From positions 1 to 64,000 of the IMG/VR virus record IMGVR_UViG_3300045970_000046: a DNA stretch of 64,000 nt. One strand, written 5' to 3'. Every line of letters starts with the position of its first letter. The stretch's first letter is position 1. The translations under genes were made by a program, and so were the position numbers. The notes under the pieces are model-generated. The model made no database searches, was not told the origin of the DNA, and saw nothing but the letters and a program-made list of their open reading frames with translations. Source of the stretch: a virus. Shown in pieces: positions 1,186-47,108 of this stretch.

Positions 1186-1629
1186 ATGACCTCGAAAAGA
1201 TGCCATAAGTGCGGTGTAACTAAGCCTGTCTCTGAATTCCATAAGCGCCGAATGTCGAAAGATGGGCTTAGTTACATCTGTATTGAATGTAATAAGAAGA
1301 AAGTAAAGGAGTATTATCAATTAGATAAGGTTAACCATAAAAAGAGAGTTAAAGCTAATAAAGAACGTACGATAATTTTAAATCGAAGCTTAATGTTAAA
1401 ATACCTTGCAAGTCATCCTTGTATAGATTGTGGTGAAACAGATATAAGAGTATTAGAATTCGATCATGTAAGAGGAAAGACCCATAATATAGCTAATATG
1501 ATGTACGACTATACATGGTCTAGTATTTTAGAAGAAATAGCTAAATGTGAAGTACGGTGCGCTAATGATCATAAGCGCCGTACTTATGTAGATTCTTATC
1601 GAGATTTAGACCTGTCGCCTAATGGTTAA
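1186..1629 (+). CDS. HNH homing-type endonuclease
   Basis: A 147-residue protein with an N-terminal zinc finger (CHKCG ... CIECN, residues 5-37) and a HNH nuclease core (CIDCG, LEFDHVRGK, CEVRCANDHKRR) in the last 75 residues. Such enzymes nick or cut DNA and usually move as selfish genes. The reading frame is clearly richer in A and T than its neighbours, which suggests recent transfer. There is no good ribosome binding site and the ATG sits next to the predicted transcription start. The last 21 nt and the stop codon lie inside a tRNA gene. Confidence 0.85.
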   Translation: MTSKRCHKCGVTKPVSEFHKRRMSKDGLSYICIECNKKKVKEYYQLDKVNHKKRVKANKERTIILNRSLMLKYLASHPCIDCGETDIRVLEFDHVRGKTHNIANMMYDYTWSSILEEIAKCEVRCANDHKRRTYVDSYRDLDLSPNG

Positions 1630-1679
1630 GGCCCTCGACTTATAATCGTTTGATTTGGGTTCGACTCCCAACAGGTCTA
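1608..1679 (+). tRNA. tRNA-Ile(UAU), imperfect anticodon stem
   Basis: The acceptor stem pairs 1608-1614 with 1672-1678 (7 bp). The D stem GCCT/AGGC is at 1617-1620 and 1629-1632. The T arm TTGGG-TTCGACT-CCCAA is at 1655-1671. The anticodon loop CTTATAA (1639-1645) gives UAU, which reads AUA. Only three of five anticodon-stem pairs form (27:43 and 28:42 are mismatched), so the molecule may be impaired. CCA is not encoded. The 5' part overlaps the end of the HNH gene. Confidence 0.7.
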
Positions 1680-1703
1680 TTTGGATCCAATGTACGTAGA
1701 GCA

Positions 1704-5027: not shown

Positions 5028-5028
5028 T

Positions 5029-5099
5029 GGCCCCATCGTCTATCGGTAGGACGCCACCCTTTCAAGGTGAGAAGCCGGGTTCGACTCCCGGTGGGGTCA
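5029..5099 (+). tRNA. tRNA-Glu(UUC)
   Basis: Complete cloverleaf. Acceptor 5029-5035 pairs with 5092-5098 and the anticodon loop CTTTCAA gives UUC. The T loop is GTTCGACT. The discriminator is A5099 and CCA is not encoded. It reads GAA/GAG codons, which the phage proteins use heavily. Confidence 0.93.
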
Positions 5100-5102
5100 T
5101 TC

Positions 5103-5184
5103 GGATGAGTGGCGGAATTGGCAGACGCTCGAGACTTAGGATCTCGTGACGAAAGTCGTGAGGGTTCGATTCCCTCCTCATCCA
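5103..5184 (+). tRNA. tRNA-Leu(UAG)
   Basis: Class II cloverleaf with the long variable arm typical of leucine. Acceptor GGATGAG (5103-5109) pairs with CTCATCC (5177-5183). Anticodon stem CGAGA/TCTCG encloses CTTAGGA, giving UAG for CUN codons. CCA is not encoded. Confidence 0.93.
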
Positions 5185-5352: not shown

Positions 5353-5423
5353 TGGGGTATCGTCTAATGGCAGGACGTCAGATTTTGGATCTGACTATGG
5401 AGGTTCGACCCCTTCTACCCCAA
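5353..5423 (+). tRNA. tRNA-Gln(UUG)
   Basis: Acceptor TGGGGTA (5353-5359) pairs with TACCCCA (5416-5422). Anticodon stem TCAGA/TCTGA encloses TTTTGGA, giving UUG. The U1-A72 end pair is characteristic of glutamine tRNAs. Discriminator A5423; CCA not encoded. Confidence 0.93.
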
Positions 5424-6947: not shown

Positions 6948-6950
6948 TCT

Positions 6951-7033
6951 GGGGCCGTGGTGGAATGGTAGACGCAGGGGACTTAAAATCCCCAGATCGC
7001 GAGATCGTCCCGGTTCGAGTCCGGGCGGCCCTA
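6951..7033 (+). tRNA. tRNA-Leu(UAA)
   Basis: Class II tRNA. Acceptor 6951-6957 pairs with 7026-7032 (G-U at the end), U8 is present, and the stem GGGGA/TCCCC encloses CTTAAAA, giving UAA. It has a long variable arm and T loop TTCGAGT. CCA is not encoded. Confidence 0.92.
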
Positions 7034-7049
7034 ATGCAGTAGAAGTGTC

Positions 7050-7344
7050 GGGCCTGAACTGGTTTCGACAGGGAACCGAAAGTAGTAGATGCGTGCCGTG
7101 GTTGGTCAGCAGGCCACGTAAAAAGCAGACCAAACAGAGAAGCGAACGAGCCCATGGCTCTGCTAGCTGTAGCGTAAGTTACACTAGCCGTTGTACCGGA
7201 AGGACCTCGAGTACCGGATACAACGTCATACACGAGGATCGTAGTTAGTACCGTATCAAAGATGTACCGGCTCCGGTAGAGCTACGCACGTAGTATCTGC
7301 TATACTAGATTTTCTGGACCGGGGTTCGATTCCCCGCAGGTCCA
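7050..7344 (+). ncRNA. ssrA: tmRNA (one-piece), tag ANEPMALLAVA
   Basis: The 5' end GGGCCTGAACTGGTTTCGAC is the tmRNA signature. It pairs (7050-7056) with CAGGTCC (7337-7343), and a tRNA-like T arm (CGGGG-TTCGATT-CCCCG) precedes it. The tag frame runs from GCG 7142 to TAA 7175-7177 and encodes ANEPMALLAVA, starting AN and ending in small hydrophobic residues like known degradation tags. tmRNA with SmpB frees stalled ribosomes and marks the product for proteolysis. CCA is not encoded. Phage-borne tmRNA is known but uncommon. Confidence 0.9.
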
Positions 7345-7363: not shown

Positions 7364-7392
7364 GGACCTCCGGTGAGTGCCGGGGGTCCTTT
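7364..7392 (+). terminator. terminator 1 after tmRNA
   Basis: A 10-bp stem (7364-7373 with 7380-7389, one G-U pair) and a short T run follow the tmRNA. Confidence 0.7.
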
Positions 7393-19424: not shown

Positions 19425-19661
19425 ATGGCCAGTAAAATCGGAACATTAATGGAGGAGACAATCAGTCTTCTTCGTGAGAGAACAAAAGCCTTTCCGCATA
19501 TTGCACAGGAGACTGGTATCTCGTTCTATTGGTTGCGTAAATTCGCATACCATGAGATCGATAATCCAAGCGTAAATACCGTTCAGCAACTGTACGAGTA
19601 CCTAGCCGAGCGGAAGTTGGATGTCAAGGTGGAACGTACAGGACCACGGTATGCTGAATAA
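19425..19661 (+). CDS. small HTH (Cro-like) regulator
   Basis: A 78-residue protein with a phage Cro/CI-like fold: LLRERTKAFPHIAQETGISFYWLRKFAYHEIDNPSVNTVQQLYEYLAE. The second and third helices (about residues 28-48) would read DNA. As the first gene after the divergent promoters it is a good candidate to control them. It overlaps queE by 11 nt. Confidence 0.75.
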   Translation: MASKIGTLMEETISLLRERTKAFPHIAQETGISFYWLRKFAYHEIDNPSVNTVQQLYEYLAERKLDVKVERTGPRYAE

Positions 19662-20349
19662 TCAAAATCCTGAAAAGGTAACTAAGGATGAAGAGGGTCG
19701 GCTAGATGTACATAGTATCTTTTACACTATACAGGGCGAGGGTCCGTTTGCTGGAACACCTTCGATCTTTGTTCGGTTAGCTGGATGTAATCTTCAGTGC
19801 CCTAAATGTGATACAGAGTATACGGATAACCGTAAGTTAATGGCTATAGAAGCTATAGGCGCCCGGCTAAACGAACTGTGGCCGCGTAGGGCCGGACAGC
19901 TTATCGTCATTACTGGCGGTGAACCATTTAGGCAGACTAATTTAGGTAACTTTGTTACATATCTACGTTCGTTAGAGTATACTGTCCAGATTGAAACTAA
20001 CGGGACACTCTATGTACCGGGTCCTTGGTCTGAAACAACTATCGTCTGTAGTCCTAAGACTTCAAAGATAAACGAGTTCCTTGGTAGGTATATCAAAGCT
20101 CTTAAGTATGTTGTAGATGTAGGTGGTATAGACTCTAGAGATGGTCTACCGTTACAGGTTATGGGTCACGATAGATTACAACCTGTAGCTCGTCCACCGG
20201 CGGGGTACACAGGATTAATCTATCTACAACCTCTTGACGAACAAGACGAAGGCCGTAATCAGCGTAACAAAGAAATAGCTATCAAGAGCTGTCTCCTATA
20301 TGGTCACAGGTTGTGTCTCCAACTCCATAAAATGCTGGATTTACCGTAG
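19651..20349 (+). CDS. queE: 7-carboxy-7-deazaguanine synthase
   Basis: A 232-residue radical SAM enzyme that turns carboxy-tetrahydropterin into 7-carboxy-7-deazaguanine, step 3 of preQ0 synthesis. TIQGEGPFAG (26-35) and the cluster motif CNLQCPKC (C46, C50, C53) are diagnostic, as is ITGGEP (87-92). ATG 19651 overlaps the HTH gene; the ATG at 19621 is too far inside it. Confidence 0.93.
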   Translation: MLNNQNPEKVTKDEEGRLDVHSIFYTIQGEGPFAGTPSIFVRLAGCNLQCPKCDTEYTDNRKLMAIEAIGARLNELWPRRAGQLIVITGGEPFRQTNLGNFVTYLRSLEYTVQIETNGTLYVPGPWSETTIVCSPKTSKINEFLGRYIKALKYVVDVGGIDSRDGLPLQVMGHDRLQPVARPPAGYTGLIYLQPLDEQDEGRNQRNKEIAIKSCLLYGHRLCLQLHKMLDLP

Positions 20350-20362
20350 CGAGGTTAGATTA

Positions 20363-20536
20363 ATGGACAGAGAAATGCTTGTAAAGTTTCTTGAGTTACT
20401 TGTTGACAAGGAGCGCCGTCTAGAGAAGGGCGCCAAAGACGGATTTGTGGATACTATGACGCACGGGGACCTAATGGAGATCCGGCGCTTTAAGTATCAA
20501 GTTGAAGACCTTCTTTCAGGGCGTAGGGTGGCTTAA
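20363..20536 (+). CDS. small protein between queE and queC
   Basis: A 57-residue helical, charged protein starting at ATG 20363 (GAGG at 20350-20353). Its TAA overlaps queC as TAATG. No known role in the pathway; possibly an unrelated inserted gene. Confidence 0.65.
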   Translation: MDREMLVKFLELLVDKERRLEKGAKDGFVDTMTHGDLMEIRRFKYQVEDLLSGRRVA

Positions 20537-21396
20537 TGGATAACGAACGTTCTAGGACACGGGAGCACGGTGAAATGCGCGCGGTAGTCGTTCTTTCTGG
20601 TGGACAGGATTCTACAACGTGCCTTTTCTGGGCGTTAGAAAATGGGATCGATAAGGTCTACCCTGTAACCTTCGACTATAACCAACGGCATAGCCGAGAG
20701 ATCGACTCAGCGCGTACAATTGTTGATCTCGCTCGTAGGTGGTACGGCTACAATAGGGTTATGGAACATGAAGTTGTAACTCTCGGTCCTGTCCTGAAGG
20801 GAGCGTCACCCCTTGTTTCTCAGAGTAATCTCGAGCAGTACAAAGATCCAGACTCTCTACCGGGTGGACTCGAAAAGACATTCGTTCCAATGCGTAACCA
20901 GTTATTCCTCACGTTGGCAGCCAATCGTGCTGCGGTACATGGCTGTGAGGCATTGGTTACTGGCGTATGTGAAGAGGATTATGGCGGTTATCCCGACTGT
21001 CGACAAACGTTTATCCATGCACTGCAGCATGCATGCAACTTGGGTACGTTCACTGGAGAAGACGGTGCACCACAGTCACTCGCCATTCTTACGCCGCTGA
21101 TGAAACTCTCTAAGGCAGCTACCGTAGCCTTAGCTATGAATCTGAACGGGTGTTACGCAGCCTTAGCCTATAGCCACACCTCGTACGATGGTCAGTATCC
21201 CCCTACAGGTCACGACCACGCAACCCTACTCCGTGAAAAGGGTTTCCGTGACGCTAATGTACCCGATCCTCTTGTCCTGCGGGCATATCTCGAAGGTTTG
21301 ATGGACCTTCCGGAGTGGTATAGGAAGATCGCTAACCTACGGAATTTCTTCGCTATGGCAAACCTTGACTACACTACTGTAGCGGAGAAACTCTAA
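20536..21396 (+). CDS. queC: 7-cyano-7-deazaguanine (preQ0) synthase lacking zinc cysteines
   Basis: A 286-residue ATP-dependent enzyme that converts 7-carboxy-7-deazaguanine to preQ0. The PP-loop SGGQDS is at 21-26 and the C-terminal region aligns well with the family. However, the usual zinc site (SCY...CG-x-C-x-x-C) reads TSYDG (215-219) and PPTGHDHATLLR (222-233), so the four cysteines are replaced by Ser216, Thr224, Asp227 and Thr230. The operon context implies it is active; it may belong to a zinc-free phage subfamily. Confidence 0.9.
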   Translation: MDNERSRTREHGEMRAVVVLSGGQDSTTCLFWALENGIDKVYPVTFDYNQRHSREIDSARTIVDLARRWYGYNRVMEHEVVTLGPVLKGASPLVSQSNLEQYKDPDSLPGGLEKTFVPMRNQLFLTLAANRAAVHGCEALVTGVCEEDYGGYPDCRQTFIHALQHACNLGTFTGEDGAPQSLAILTPLMKLSKAATVALAMNLNGCYAALAYSHTSYDGQYPPTGHDHATLLREKGFRDANVPDPLVLRAYLEGLMDLPEWYRKIANLRNFFAMANLDYTTVAEKL

Positions 21397-21845
21397 TGGA
21401 GCCGACGTTCGTTTACGGTGGTTATCATACGGCTACGAGGTACCATGACATTTCGTGCGGACACAGAGTCGTCGGCCATGAAGGCAAGTGCCGGTTCCTA
21501 CATGGTCATAATTATCGCGTGCATTTTACTTGCCGCGCTAGAAATCTGGACAGCGTTGGCCGGGTAGTAGACTTCGGTGTTATCAAAGAAGCCTTATGCA
21601 TGTGGCTAGAGGTGCATTGGGACCATAAGATGTTACTATGGGACCAAGACCAAATGTGTGCTGCGTTCGAAGTTGAGGATGTAGACTATGTTCCGGTACC
21701 GTTTAATCCAACCGCCGAGAATATGGCCGAGTATTTAGTTCGGAACGTAGCACCCGCGCAGCTTGGCGACCTAGATGTAGAATGCTTCCGCGTTACTATC
21801 GAAGAAACCTCTAAGTGCTCCGCTACCTACGAGATTCAAAAATGA
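21396..21845 (+). CDS. queD: 6-carboxy-tetrahydropterin synthase
   Basis: A 149-residue QueD, step 2 of preQ0 synthesis. The zinc/catalytic set is visible: CGHR (His23 region), GKCRFLHGHNY (catalytic Cys, two His), VHWDHKMLL and the terminal IEET glutamate. Normal length. ATG overlaps the queC stop; its own TGA overlaps the next ATG. Confidence 0.92.
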   Translation: MEPTFVYGGYHTATRYHDISCGHRVVGHEGKCRFLHGHNYRVHFTCRARNLDSVGRVVDFGVIKEALCMWLEVHWDHKMLLWDQDQMCAAFEVEDVDYVPVPFNPTAENMAEYLVRNVAPAQLGDLDVECFRVTIEETSKCSATYEIQK

Positions 21846-22723
21846 TCCGGAAGATTACCAACAGCGAAGTAAATCAATTTGCCTTTATGACGGCTGTAGA
21901 CATTGGCCTTAATCATACAGCCCCAAAGGTCTACCCTATTCCTCGTGGTGGTATTCCGGCAGCCTATGCGGTTAAGACGCATATGTCAGGTATGACGGTT
22001 GTAGATAGTCCTGAAGAGGCCACTATCTTTATCGACGACCTTATCGACTCTGGGGCTACGCAGGATAAGTACGCCGCGCAGTATCCGGGTAAGCCATTCT
22101 ACGCATTACTAGATAAACGAACACCGTCATGGAAGCAGGTGTGGATTGTCTGGCCTTGGGAAGAGACGGCTGAGTCTTCAATTGAGGATAATATTCTCCG
22201 ACTACTTGAGTATGTTGGAGAGGACGTTAGTCGTGAAGGTCTTAAGGAGACTCCTAAACGTGTTGCTAAGGCGTGGAGGGAGTGGTGCTCTGGTTACTTC
22301 CAGAAGCCGGAAGATATCTTAAAAACCTTTATCGACGGAGCTGATGGTTGTGACGAGATGGTAATTCAGAAGGACATTCCCTTCTACTCGCACTGTGAAC
22401 ACCATCTAGCTCCGTTCTTCGGAACCGTAACTATCGCCTATATCCCGAGCGGTAAGATCGTAGGTCTGTCTAAGCTGGCTAGGTTGTCTGACATCTACGC
22501 CAAGCGGTTACAGGTTCAGGAACGGTATACCAATCAGATCGCCAACGCCCTAATGGATAATCTACAGCCTAAGGGTGTCGGAGTAGTCGTTAGGGCGCGC
22601 CACCTCTGCATCGAGTCCCGAGGTGTGGACAAGCAGGGTCACTACACAGTCACCAGTGCGTTACGCGGAGTAATGCGTAGCCTTCCGGAGGCTAGGGCCG
22701 AGTTTCTCTCCCTAGCGAGATAG
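21842..22723 (+). CDS. folE: phosphoribosyltransferase fused to GTP cyclohydrolase I
   Basis: A 293-residue fusion. The N-terminal 110 residues have the PRPP-binding signature FIDDLIDSGAT (63-73) and VYPIPRGG. From about residue 112 it is a full FolE with HCEHH (184-188), GKIVGLSKL and HLCIESRGV, which converts GTP to dihydroneopterin triphosphate, step 1 of preQ0 synthesis. The PRTase part might salvage a base or attach ribose-phosphate to the deazaguanine. That is inference. Confidence 0.92.
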   Translation: MIRKITNSEVNQFAFMTAVDIGLNHTAPKVYPIPRGGIPAAYAVKTHMSGMTVVDSPEEATIFIDDLIDSGATQDKYAAQYPGKPFYALLDKRTPSWKQVWIVWPWEETAESSIEDNILRLLEYVGEDVSREGLKETPKRVAKAWREWCSGYFQKPEDILKTFIDGADGCDEMVIQKDIPFYSHCEHHLAPFFGTVTIAYIPSGKIVGLSKLARLSDIYAKRLQVQERYTNQIANALMDNLQPKGVGVVVRARHLCIESRGVDKQGHYTVTSALRGVMRSLPEARAEFLSLAR

Positions 22724-23730
22724 TGCGCCTATTCCTAGCTGCTTGTTATACTTCGAACTTCGGTAAAGTCGGTACGATTTATTCGAAGCTTACGGACGGT
22801 GAGAAGTATCACCGTGACATCTATAAGAATATCCTCGAGTCGTATCACTATATCCACAAAGAGAGTTACGTCGAAAAGATTAAGACCGATAAGCAAACCG
22901 TGTTCCTAGACTCTGGTGCGTTCTCCGCCTTTACTAAGGGTGTCGAGATCGATATACCTGAGTATTGCGACTATGTAAAACGGAACAAGGATATTATCGA
23001 GGAGGTACCTGTAGACTTTCACGGGTGGAAGGGTAATGTTCAGCTCTTCTCCGTACTCGACTGTATTGGTGACAAAGAGAAGGGTGCCGGTACTCTCCGT
23101 AATCAACAGAAGATGGAGAAGCTCGGAGTATTCCCCCTACCCTGCTTCCACTACGGAGAAGATGAAAAGTATCTAGAACATTATATTAGAAACTATCCGT
23201 ATATCACGTTAGGAGGTATGGTTCCTATCACAACTAAACAGCTCTATCACTGGCTGGATAGGATGTGGGATAAGTACCTTACAGATGAGAACGGCGTTCC
23301 GAAGGTCAAGGTGCATGGGTTCGGCTTAACAACACTAGAACTAATGACGAGGTACCCTTGGTACTCCGTGGACTCGTCGTCGTGGGTACAGATAGCGGTT
23401 CACGGTAACATACTGATCCCCGACGGTCACCTAGACGGTGTACAGATTAACCCCAACGAGATCCACACACCCGGCGACAAAATTCTCGCGATATCGTCGG
23501 ATAGTCCCCGCACCAAAGAACAATGGGCACATTACGATACCTTACCCGAACAGATGCAACAGGCTGTTCTTAAGTGTATCAATAAGACTGGTTTCGAAGT
23601 TAACAGACTACGGACCAGTGCTTATTCCAGATGGGCGTGGAACTTCTTCGCCTTTAGAGAAATCGAAAAGCGGGTTAACGCTCACGATACTATTCATTTT
23701 AAACCCGAACAGAGATTACTTTTCGGATGA
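22723..23730 (+). CDS. dpdA: DpdA-like 7-deazaguanine DNA transglycosylase
   Basis: A 335-residue protein of the tRNA-guanine transglycosylase superfamily in its phage DNA form. FLDSGAFSAF, GGMVPITTKQ and VHGFGLTTLELM ... YSVDSSSW carry the conserved Asp residues expected in the active site. DpdA enzymes swap guanine in DNA for preQ0 or a derivative. Starts with GTG 22723, overlapping the folE stop by one base, so it is coupled to the synthesis genes. Confidence 0.85.
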   Translation: MRLFLAACYTSNFGKVGTIYSKLTDGEKYHRDIYKNILESYHYIHKESYVEKIKTDKQTVFLDSGAFSAFTKGVEIDIPEYCDYVKRNKDIIEEVPVDFHGWKGNVQLFSVLDCIGDKEKGAGTLRNQQKMEKLGVFPLPCFHYGEDEKYLEHYIRNYPYITLGGMVPITTKQLYHWLDRMWDKYLTDENGVPKVKVHGFGLTTLELMTRYPWYSVDSSSWVQIAVHGNILIPDGHLDGVQINPNEIHTPGDKILAISSDSPRTKEQWAHYDTLPEQMQQAVLKCINKTGFEVNRLRTSAYSRWAWNFFAFREIEKRVNAHDTIHFKPEQRLLFG

Positions 23731-46112: not shown

Positions 46113-47108
46113 CTAGTATGATAAGCCACCTAGTTTAATGTCGTAAATTAGTCCGGATCCGAAGAGGTATAAGAACGTGCTCGCCGGAGTAGGCCAAGCA
46201 CCAGCCGTATTTAAGGTTACGTTTTGAATCCCATCTATGAAAGATAAAGTAGCACTCGTTCCCAGTCGGAATTCTATCCTGTATAGTTTATTTACCAACG
46301 GAGTTGGAACTAGATTAATTTGTTCTAAACCACCAGCTACACTAATACCAGACCAAGTCCCTAGCTCAGAGTCGTACCCAGCAGAGAATCCGTTTGTATT
46401 GGATAATAGAGTCTGCAAGCTTGCGGCGGTAGTATAAGTGCTTCCAGACAGCAAGGAAAATAGTCCGGAGCCATTGATACTATTCGTGGTCCTAGCGGCG
46501 CACCTAAATTCGAGATACCAAGGAGCGTCCTGCATTCCGGTAATACTAGCCTTAATAACGTCCGCGCCAGCCATGGTGACTATACCAGCCGAAACCGTAG
46601 GGGCACCTGCTACAATAGAGAACTGACCTAGAGTATTGGATGCAAAATCTTCATAGAGGACAACGCTGGGAGTGGTTTGAATAGTTAGAGTACGAGGACT
46701 CGCGAATAAGGCCGAAATATTACCAGCCGCGTCTTTGGCCCATGGGTAGAACGTTACGGATCCACGACCCTCCGCAATCCAGGAAGTTGGCACAGTAGCT
46801 ACCCACTTAGGATCTGCGGGGGACGGTTTAGTAGCGGATTCTGTAATTAAGTATCCTGCTATACCGCCAGCATGCGTTGCGTTAAGATTGTTAATCAGAA
46901 TACGAGCCCCGAGATGGGCTGTGTCATTGGCGTAGAGATTAAACGCATTCATTGAGGGAAGAGTATCTTCCACCGTAAAGGACCTACCGGAGACTACCAC
47001 CGTACCGTTTACTTTCATATCAACAGACTGAGCACCCCCGGCCATAGCTACATCCGGAATGGACCAATTTCCTGCCCCGTCAGCCGTAGTGGACCCAAGT
47101 AAAGCCAT
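46113..47108 (-). CDS. fibre-like protein, second half of a split Ig-like protein
   Basis: A 331-residue protein. The first 35 residues (MALLGSTTADGAGNWSIPDV) complete an Ig-like domain begun at the end of the previous gene. The middle has FYPWAKDAAGNISALFASPRTLTI, another Ig-like piece. The last 170 residues (VLYEDFASNTLGQFSIVAG...) look like a concanavalin/LamG-type lectin. It may be a host-binding protein. Confidence 0.6.
   Translation of the reverse strand: MALLGSTTADGAGNWSIPDVAMAGGAQSVDMKVNGTVVVSGRSFTVEDTLPSMNAFNLYANDTAHLGARILINNLNATHAGGIAGYLITESATKPSPADPKWVATVPTSWIAEGRGSVTFYPWAKDAAGNISALFASPRTLTIQTTPSVVLYEDFASNTLGQFSIVAGAPTVSAGIVTMAGADVIKASITGMQDAPWYLEFRCAARTTNSINGSGLFSLLSGSTYTTAASLQTLLSNTNGFSAGYDSELGTWSGISVAGGLEQINLVPTPLVNKLYRIEFRLGTSATLSFIDGIQNVTLNTAGAWPTPASTFLYLFGSGLIYDIKLGGLSY

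Follow-up and report, generated by a model that had tools for sequence, protein, structure and literature searches.

Phage-borne tmRNA (ssrA) genes are described for the mycobacteriophages Bxz1 and Wildcat and their relatives, for Bacillus phage G and for Melnitz (PMC4131195, PMC9004378). Ten phage tmRNAs were listed in 2014 (PMC4131195), and in 2021 the gene was reported for 402 of 18,146 phage genomes, about 2% (PMC9004378). The tmRNA described here is a further example of this known class. As in those phages, ssrA lies in the phage genome itself, but their host groups are others and Melnitz has the two-piece form. A comparison of tag head and tail with the host tag does not occur in the available portions of these two accounts of phage tmRNAs.

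A one-piece tmRNA gene in a tailed-phage contig

The window analysed here is a stretch of 64,000 nt, positions 1 to 64,000 of the IMG/VR record IMGVR_UViG_3300045970_000046. The record is a tailed-phage contig of 75,119 bases with 49% GC and five tRNAs, and encodes a portal, a major head protein, a terminase, a tape measure protein, a DNA polymerase A with clamp and a Cas4-type exonuclease. A complete one-piece tmRNA gene of 295 nt was found at 7050-7344 on the + strand, with the discriminator A at 7344. ARAGORN and Rfam agreed on these limits (7347 if the CCA positions are included). The covariance search that the earlier note had proposed as a check of its phage-encoded one-piece tmRNA confirmed the gene: RF00023 matched over the whole model length (1-374) with 119.3 bits (E 5.2e-46; gathering score 47), and this was the single tmRNA above the cut-off in all 75,119 bases. 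The predicted fold was better than those of 200 of 200 dinucleotide shuffles (minimum free energy z -3.7). The parts of the RNA are the following.

7050..7344, + strand: one-piece tmRNA (ssrA) gene (ARAGORN, Rfam)
7050..7056, + strand: acceptor stem, 5' strand GGGCCTG, pairing with CAGGTCC at 7337-7343 (7 of 7 pairs)
7057..7068, + strand: D-loop region of the tRNA-like domain, AACTGGTTTCGA (Rfam alignment)
7069..7096, + strand: long helix P2, 5' strand; 3' strand at 7286-7316 (segments of 7, 4, 6 and 6 pairs, all paired)
7097..7133, + strand: pseudoknot PK1, CGTGG/CCACG and TTGGTC/GACCAA (5 and 6 pairs)
7142..7177, + strand: tag reading frame, GCG AAC GAG CCC ATG GCT CTG CTA GCT GTA GCG TAA (sequence and register)
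7162..7188, + strand: helix P5, GCTAG/CTAGC and TGTA/TACA (5 and 4 pairs), with the stop codon inside the loop
7189..7237, + strand: pseudoknot PK2, CGTTGTA/TACAACG, CCGG/CCGG and CCTCG/CGAGG (7, 4 and 5 pairs)
7265..7278, + strand: hairpin TACCG-GCTC-CGGTA (position and stem; this pairing is absent from the minimum-energy fold)
7320..7336, + strand: T arm, CGGGG-TTCGATT-CCCCG (5 of 5 pairs)
7364..7389, + strand: terminator-like hairpin of 10 pairs with loop TGAGTG, followed by only TTT (read from the sequence; unreported by the hairpin scan)

All parts of a one-piece tmRNA had been claimed to be present, and acceptor, P2, PK1, resume codon, P5 and PK2 can indeed be drawn; the region 3' of PK2 is short and holds one likely hairpin (7265-7278), probably the remnant of the last pseudoknot domain. 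Loss of the G3-U70 pair of the acceptor stem had been named as evidence against charging with alanine. This alanine identity pair is kept as G7052-U7341, and G3 and T292 (gene numbering) were invariant across 11 aligned tmRNAs. CCA is not encoded by the gene and must therefore be added by a host enzyme.

Among PK2-PK4, PK2 is backed by compensating changes. Its layout recurs in two other viral tmRNAs, L132 and L134, while the inner stems are also present in L131 and Myxococcus phage Mx1; across phage tmRNAs the strands are altered yet complementary (e.g. CCTCG/CGAGG, ACCCT/AGGGT and CCCTC/GAGGG). PK2 is weaker in L133. Shuffling of single sequences gave P values of 0.03-0.10 for the inner stem in the window, L132, L134 and L131, a weak result, and no significance in Mx1 and L133. 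The support for PK2 lies in its shared architecture with compensating changes.

Integration into ssrA genes is known (PMC3203893, PMC3029335), and the phage RNA, at 295 nt, falls short of the roughly 350 nt of host tmRNAs. Both would suit a decaying, functionless relic left by imprecise excision at a host ssrA attachment site. We consider such an origin very improbable, as the gene is complete from the acceptor stem to the discriminator, PK2 carries compensating changes and the redesigned P5 still pairs. Moreover, a search of the record for a tyrosine integrase found none, and the gene lies within a cluster of phage-type tRNAs.

Phage tRNAs and codon use

ARAGORN located the five tRNAs at the following positions.

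1607..1680, + strand: tRNA-Ile (UAU)
5028..5100, + strand: tRNA-Glu (UUC)
5103..5184, + strand: tRNA-Leu (UAG)
5353..5423, + strand: tRNA-Gln (UUG)
6950..7034, + strand: tRNA-Leu (UAA), 15 nt upstream of the tmRNA gene and probably on one transcript with it

The start of tRNA-Ile is overlapped by the end of a frame with HNH/endonuclease VII matches (1186-1629). The tRNAs read ATA, GAA, CTA, CAA and TTA. Per thousand codons, the phage uses CTA 25.1 times, TTA 17.6, ATA 12.6, GAA 29.5 and CAA 13.2 times, versus 0.6, 0.0, 0.3, 4.0 and 1.0 in Anaeromyxobacter-type loci (counted from 16 long frames). The codons read by these tRNAs are thus frequent in phage genes and rare in Anaeromyxobacter-like ones, which points to codon compensation. 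The earlier note had read the tmRNA together with five tRNAs as a sign of strong control of translation; all five are real, but that interpretation is too general in view of the codon counts. The pattern fits a GC-rich host, without proving it. In the window genes between 13852 and 62156, leucine is strongly encoded by CTA (25 per thousand versus 7.5 for CTG), an unusual preference with a matching phage tRNA-Leu (UAG).

The contig also encodes queC, queD, folE and a tgt-like gene; at 19621-23730 the window holds a 7-deazaguanine pathway (radical SAM, QueC-like, QueD (PTPS), GTP cyclohydrolase I and tgt-like proteins). It probably serves DNA modification, because no phage tRNA has a GUN anticodon.

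Reading frame of the tag

The reading of the tag as ANEPMALLAVA, already proposed in the earlier note, rests on register. Between the 3' strand of PK1 (GACC) and the resume codon GCG there are 10 nt, a spacing equal to that in Anaeromyxobacter and Mx1. Of the phage tmRNAs sharing the PK1 core, almost all have 10-12 nt here, L129 being less clear. The 11 residues are encoded at 7142-7174 and followed by the stop codon at 7175-7177. The tag printed by ARAGORN (VVPEGPRVPDTT...) was rejected, since it is in the wrong register and starts within PK2. The program can fail on unusual tails, and other altered tags may have been missed.

The phage tag is hydrophobic and ends in Val-Ala (LAVA), not Ala-Ala. 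Some cellular tags end in LAVA, AFA or AYA; an Ala-Ala end is common and usual for tmRNA rather than defining.

Cellular tmRNAs with the same tag head

Using the PK1 core of the phage tmRNA as search pattern, we scanned 84,980 species genomes and obtained matches almost solely in Planctomycetota and Myxococcota. The tmRNAs of Anaeromyxobacteraceae (Myxococcota) carried the tag ANEPMALAA in all decoded Anaeromyxobacteraceae-type genomes. Up to 61 of 66 bases were identical between these and the phage gene from the end of P2 through the tag ATG, a stretch that includes PK1, the first half of the tag with its synonymous positions and the resume codon GCG at the matching place. In contrast, the phage tag has two more residues and ends in ALLAVA, and P5, PK2 and the 3' half differ and are shorter. 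This is the comparison with host ssrA that the earlier note had suggested, and it places the difference from the likely host group in the tail (ALLAVA versus ALAA).

Outside the Anaeromyxobacteraceae, the Myxococcota tag is mostly ANDNVELALAA; ANEPM-type tags also occur in two Myxococcota beyond the main clade (G009 and G025). No ANEPM...AVA tag was found in a tmRNA among 195 Myxococcota genomes, the two matches to the pattern falling outside tmRNA genes. Two LAVA-ended cellular tags were found in Myxococcota, ANNNSAKLAVA (L224; G184, 1.8 Mb) and ANNNVELAVA (L225; G183, 1.1 Mb). Further small Myxococcota genomes of the set (G179, G178 and G182) have tags ending in AYA or AFA, so that unusual degron ends are a feature of small-genome Myxococcota.

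Exact searches with the tag DNA and one tmRNA 5' pattern gave nothing useful, and a tmRNA tree did not resolve the origin of the phage gene (support of 50-58 near phage genes). Among cultured phages, the closest relatives by polymerase and portal infect Pseudomonadota (about 52% identical). BLAST found no phage sequence matching the 25 kb of the window that were compared, and a search of Myxococcota genomes with the portal, as a clue to the host, gave weak matches.

Other viral tmRNAs

In IMG/VR, only two other contigs had an ANEPM tag after a matching PK1 end: L133 with ANEPMQQLAVA and L132 with ANEPMVSLRAVA. All three viral ANEPM tags therefore end in AVA, whereas all decoded host ANEPM tags end in ALAA. 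L132 (83.6 kb) has about five genes in common with the window phage, at 27-50% identity; L133 (52.9 kb), which carries baseplate, tape-measure, portal and terminase genes, shares none detectably. The tag of a further viral tmRNA, L134 (ANQPMVNEFRAAA), closely matches that of L132 at its start and ends in AAA, so the penultimate tag position is variable among phage genes. The host/phage contrast in the tail holds only inside the ANEPM group. We dropped the idea that viral tags generally end unlike cellular ones, since by our count only a small minority of tags in either set has a non-AA end.

Myxococcus phage Mx1 has a complete, unannotated tmRNA (OR576727.2, about 46646-47022; L006, 3002-3378), which resembles that of the window phage in the PK1 core and PK2 architecture. 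It differs in its tag (VNTNVFGSQMMAAA), its valine resume codon, its length of 377 nt and the size of the phage, which at 169.6 kb is much larger. The 3' part of this tmRNA is overlapped by a possibly spurious CDS, annotated as 'Hef-like endonuclease' (WNM70103.1). By register, very long viral tags were read in L137 (10359-10762; AKNEEFDVPFDLIVANGFGVGHGVRALA, 28 aa) and L126 (9839-10212; ANDNVELPAYMIAAMSHGMFAAA, 23 aa). The tags of the viral two-piece tmRNAs L008 and L011 end in SAPVAV, with a non-Ala C-terminus, and that of the related L042 in SAPVAA.

The phage tail could also be a plain copy of its host's, if the true host were an unsampled Myxococcota lineage with a LAVA-ended ssrA; nothing would then be altered. 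The two small-genome Myxococcota with LAVA tags are in line with this, as is the 49% GC of the phage. We nevertheless regard it as unlikely. ANEPM...AVA was absent from the 195 Myxococcota genomes, every decoded ANEPM host ends in ALAA, the two other viral contigs combine a similar tail with different middles, and the AAA end of L134 indicates that the tail varies among phage genes.

The tag tail and its possible effect on degradation

In E. coli, the terminal Ala-Ala is the most important element of the tag for ClpX, and altering the last two residues raises KM but has little effect on Vmax (PMC7652416). Standard variants of the ssrA degron include LVA and AAV (PMC9382460). Altered protease recognition, as the earlier note had suggested, is plausible, and the likeliest consequence would be a modest shift in affinity.

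The tail may have been selected as a degron change, making rescued fragments less or differently degradable or lowering use of the host tag by competition. The E. coli data and the AVA end of three out of three viral ANEPM tags, found in none of the decoded host ANEPM tags, speak for such selection. However, the C-terminal Ala is kept, a Val next to it is mild in view of the LVA variant, LAVA tags occur in cells, and the three phage genes may share one phage ancestor and hence not represent three independent events. On balance, selection of this kind appears doubtful. Since LAVA also ends a few cellular tags, a tuned or drifting degron is more likely than a stealth tag. As to the conserved head, a role as binding site of the adaptor SspB was dropped: SspB (PF04386) was not found in seven Anaeromyxobacteraceae-type genomes, which makes ancestry the probable reason for its conservation.

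Discussion

Taken together, the sequence comparisons indicate that the window phage probably carries a working copy of ssrA that derives from a Myxococcota host whose tag is of the ANEPM type, with the head kept and the tail changed, and that this tmRNA would rescue stalled ribosomes. The gene was probably acquired, directly or via other phages, from such a host, e.g. a member of the Anaeromyxobacteraceae; ANEPM would have been retained from the host type and ALAA changed to ALLAVA. Counted against this reading are the core proteins, which are nearest to those of Pseudomonadota phages, the weak portal matches in Myxococcota, the tree support of 50-58 and the ANEPM-type tags of the two Myxococcota beyond the main clade.

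We propose that the tmRNA shares a transcript with the neighbouring tRNA-Leu, that host enzymes mature it and add CCA, and that host AlaRS charges it. It would be bound by host SmpB, as no smpB (PF01668) was found in the 75-kb record, which may be incomplete. The charged RNA would free ribosomes stalled in infection and add ANEPMALLAVA to their products. Ribosomes are likely to stall because the A-ending codons used by the phage are rare in a GC-rich host, and the five tRNAs would meet the same need as the tmRNA. Tagged proteins would probably still be substrates for degradation by ClpXP of the host or a related protease, with changed affinity.

These findings bear on the question of why phages carry tmRNA: here the phage tag has a known probable counterpart in cells, from which it departs only in the degron end. 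The pair ANEPMALAA and ANEPMALLAVA makes a direct comparison with ClpXP possible, and the tmRNA points to the group of bacteria that this uncultured phage likely infects. More tentatively, Myxococcota phages might use their own ssrA, with a host-type head and an AVA tail instead of ALAA, so that in infected cells rescued polypeptides would be routed to host proteases, or spared by them, differently from those that bear the host tag.
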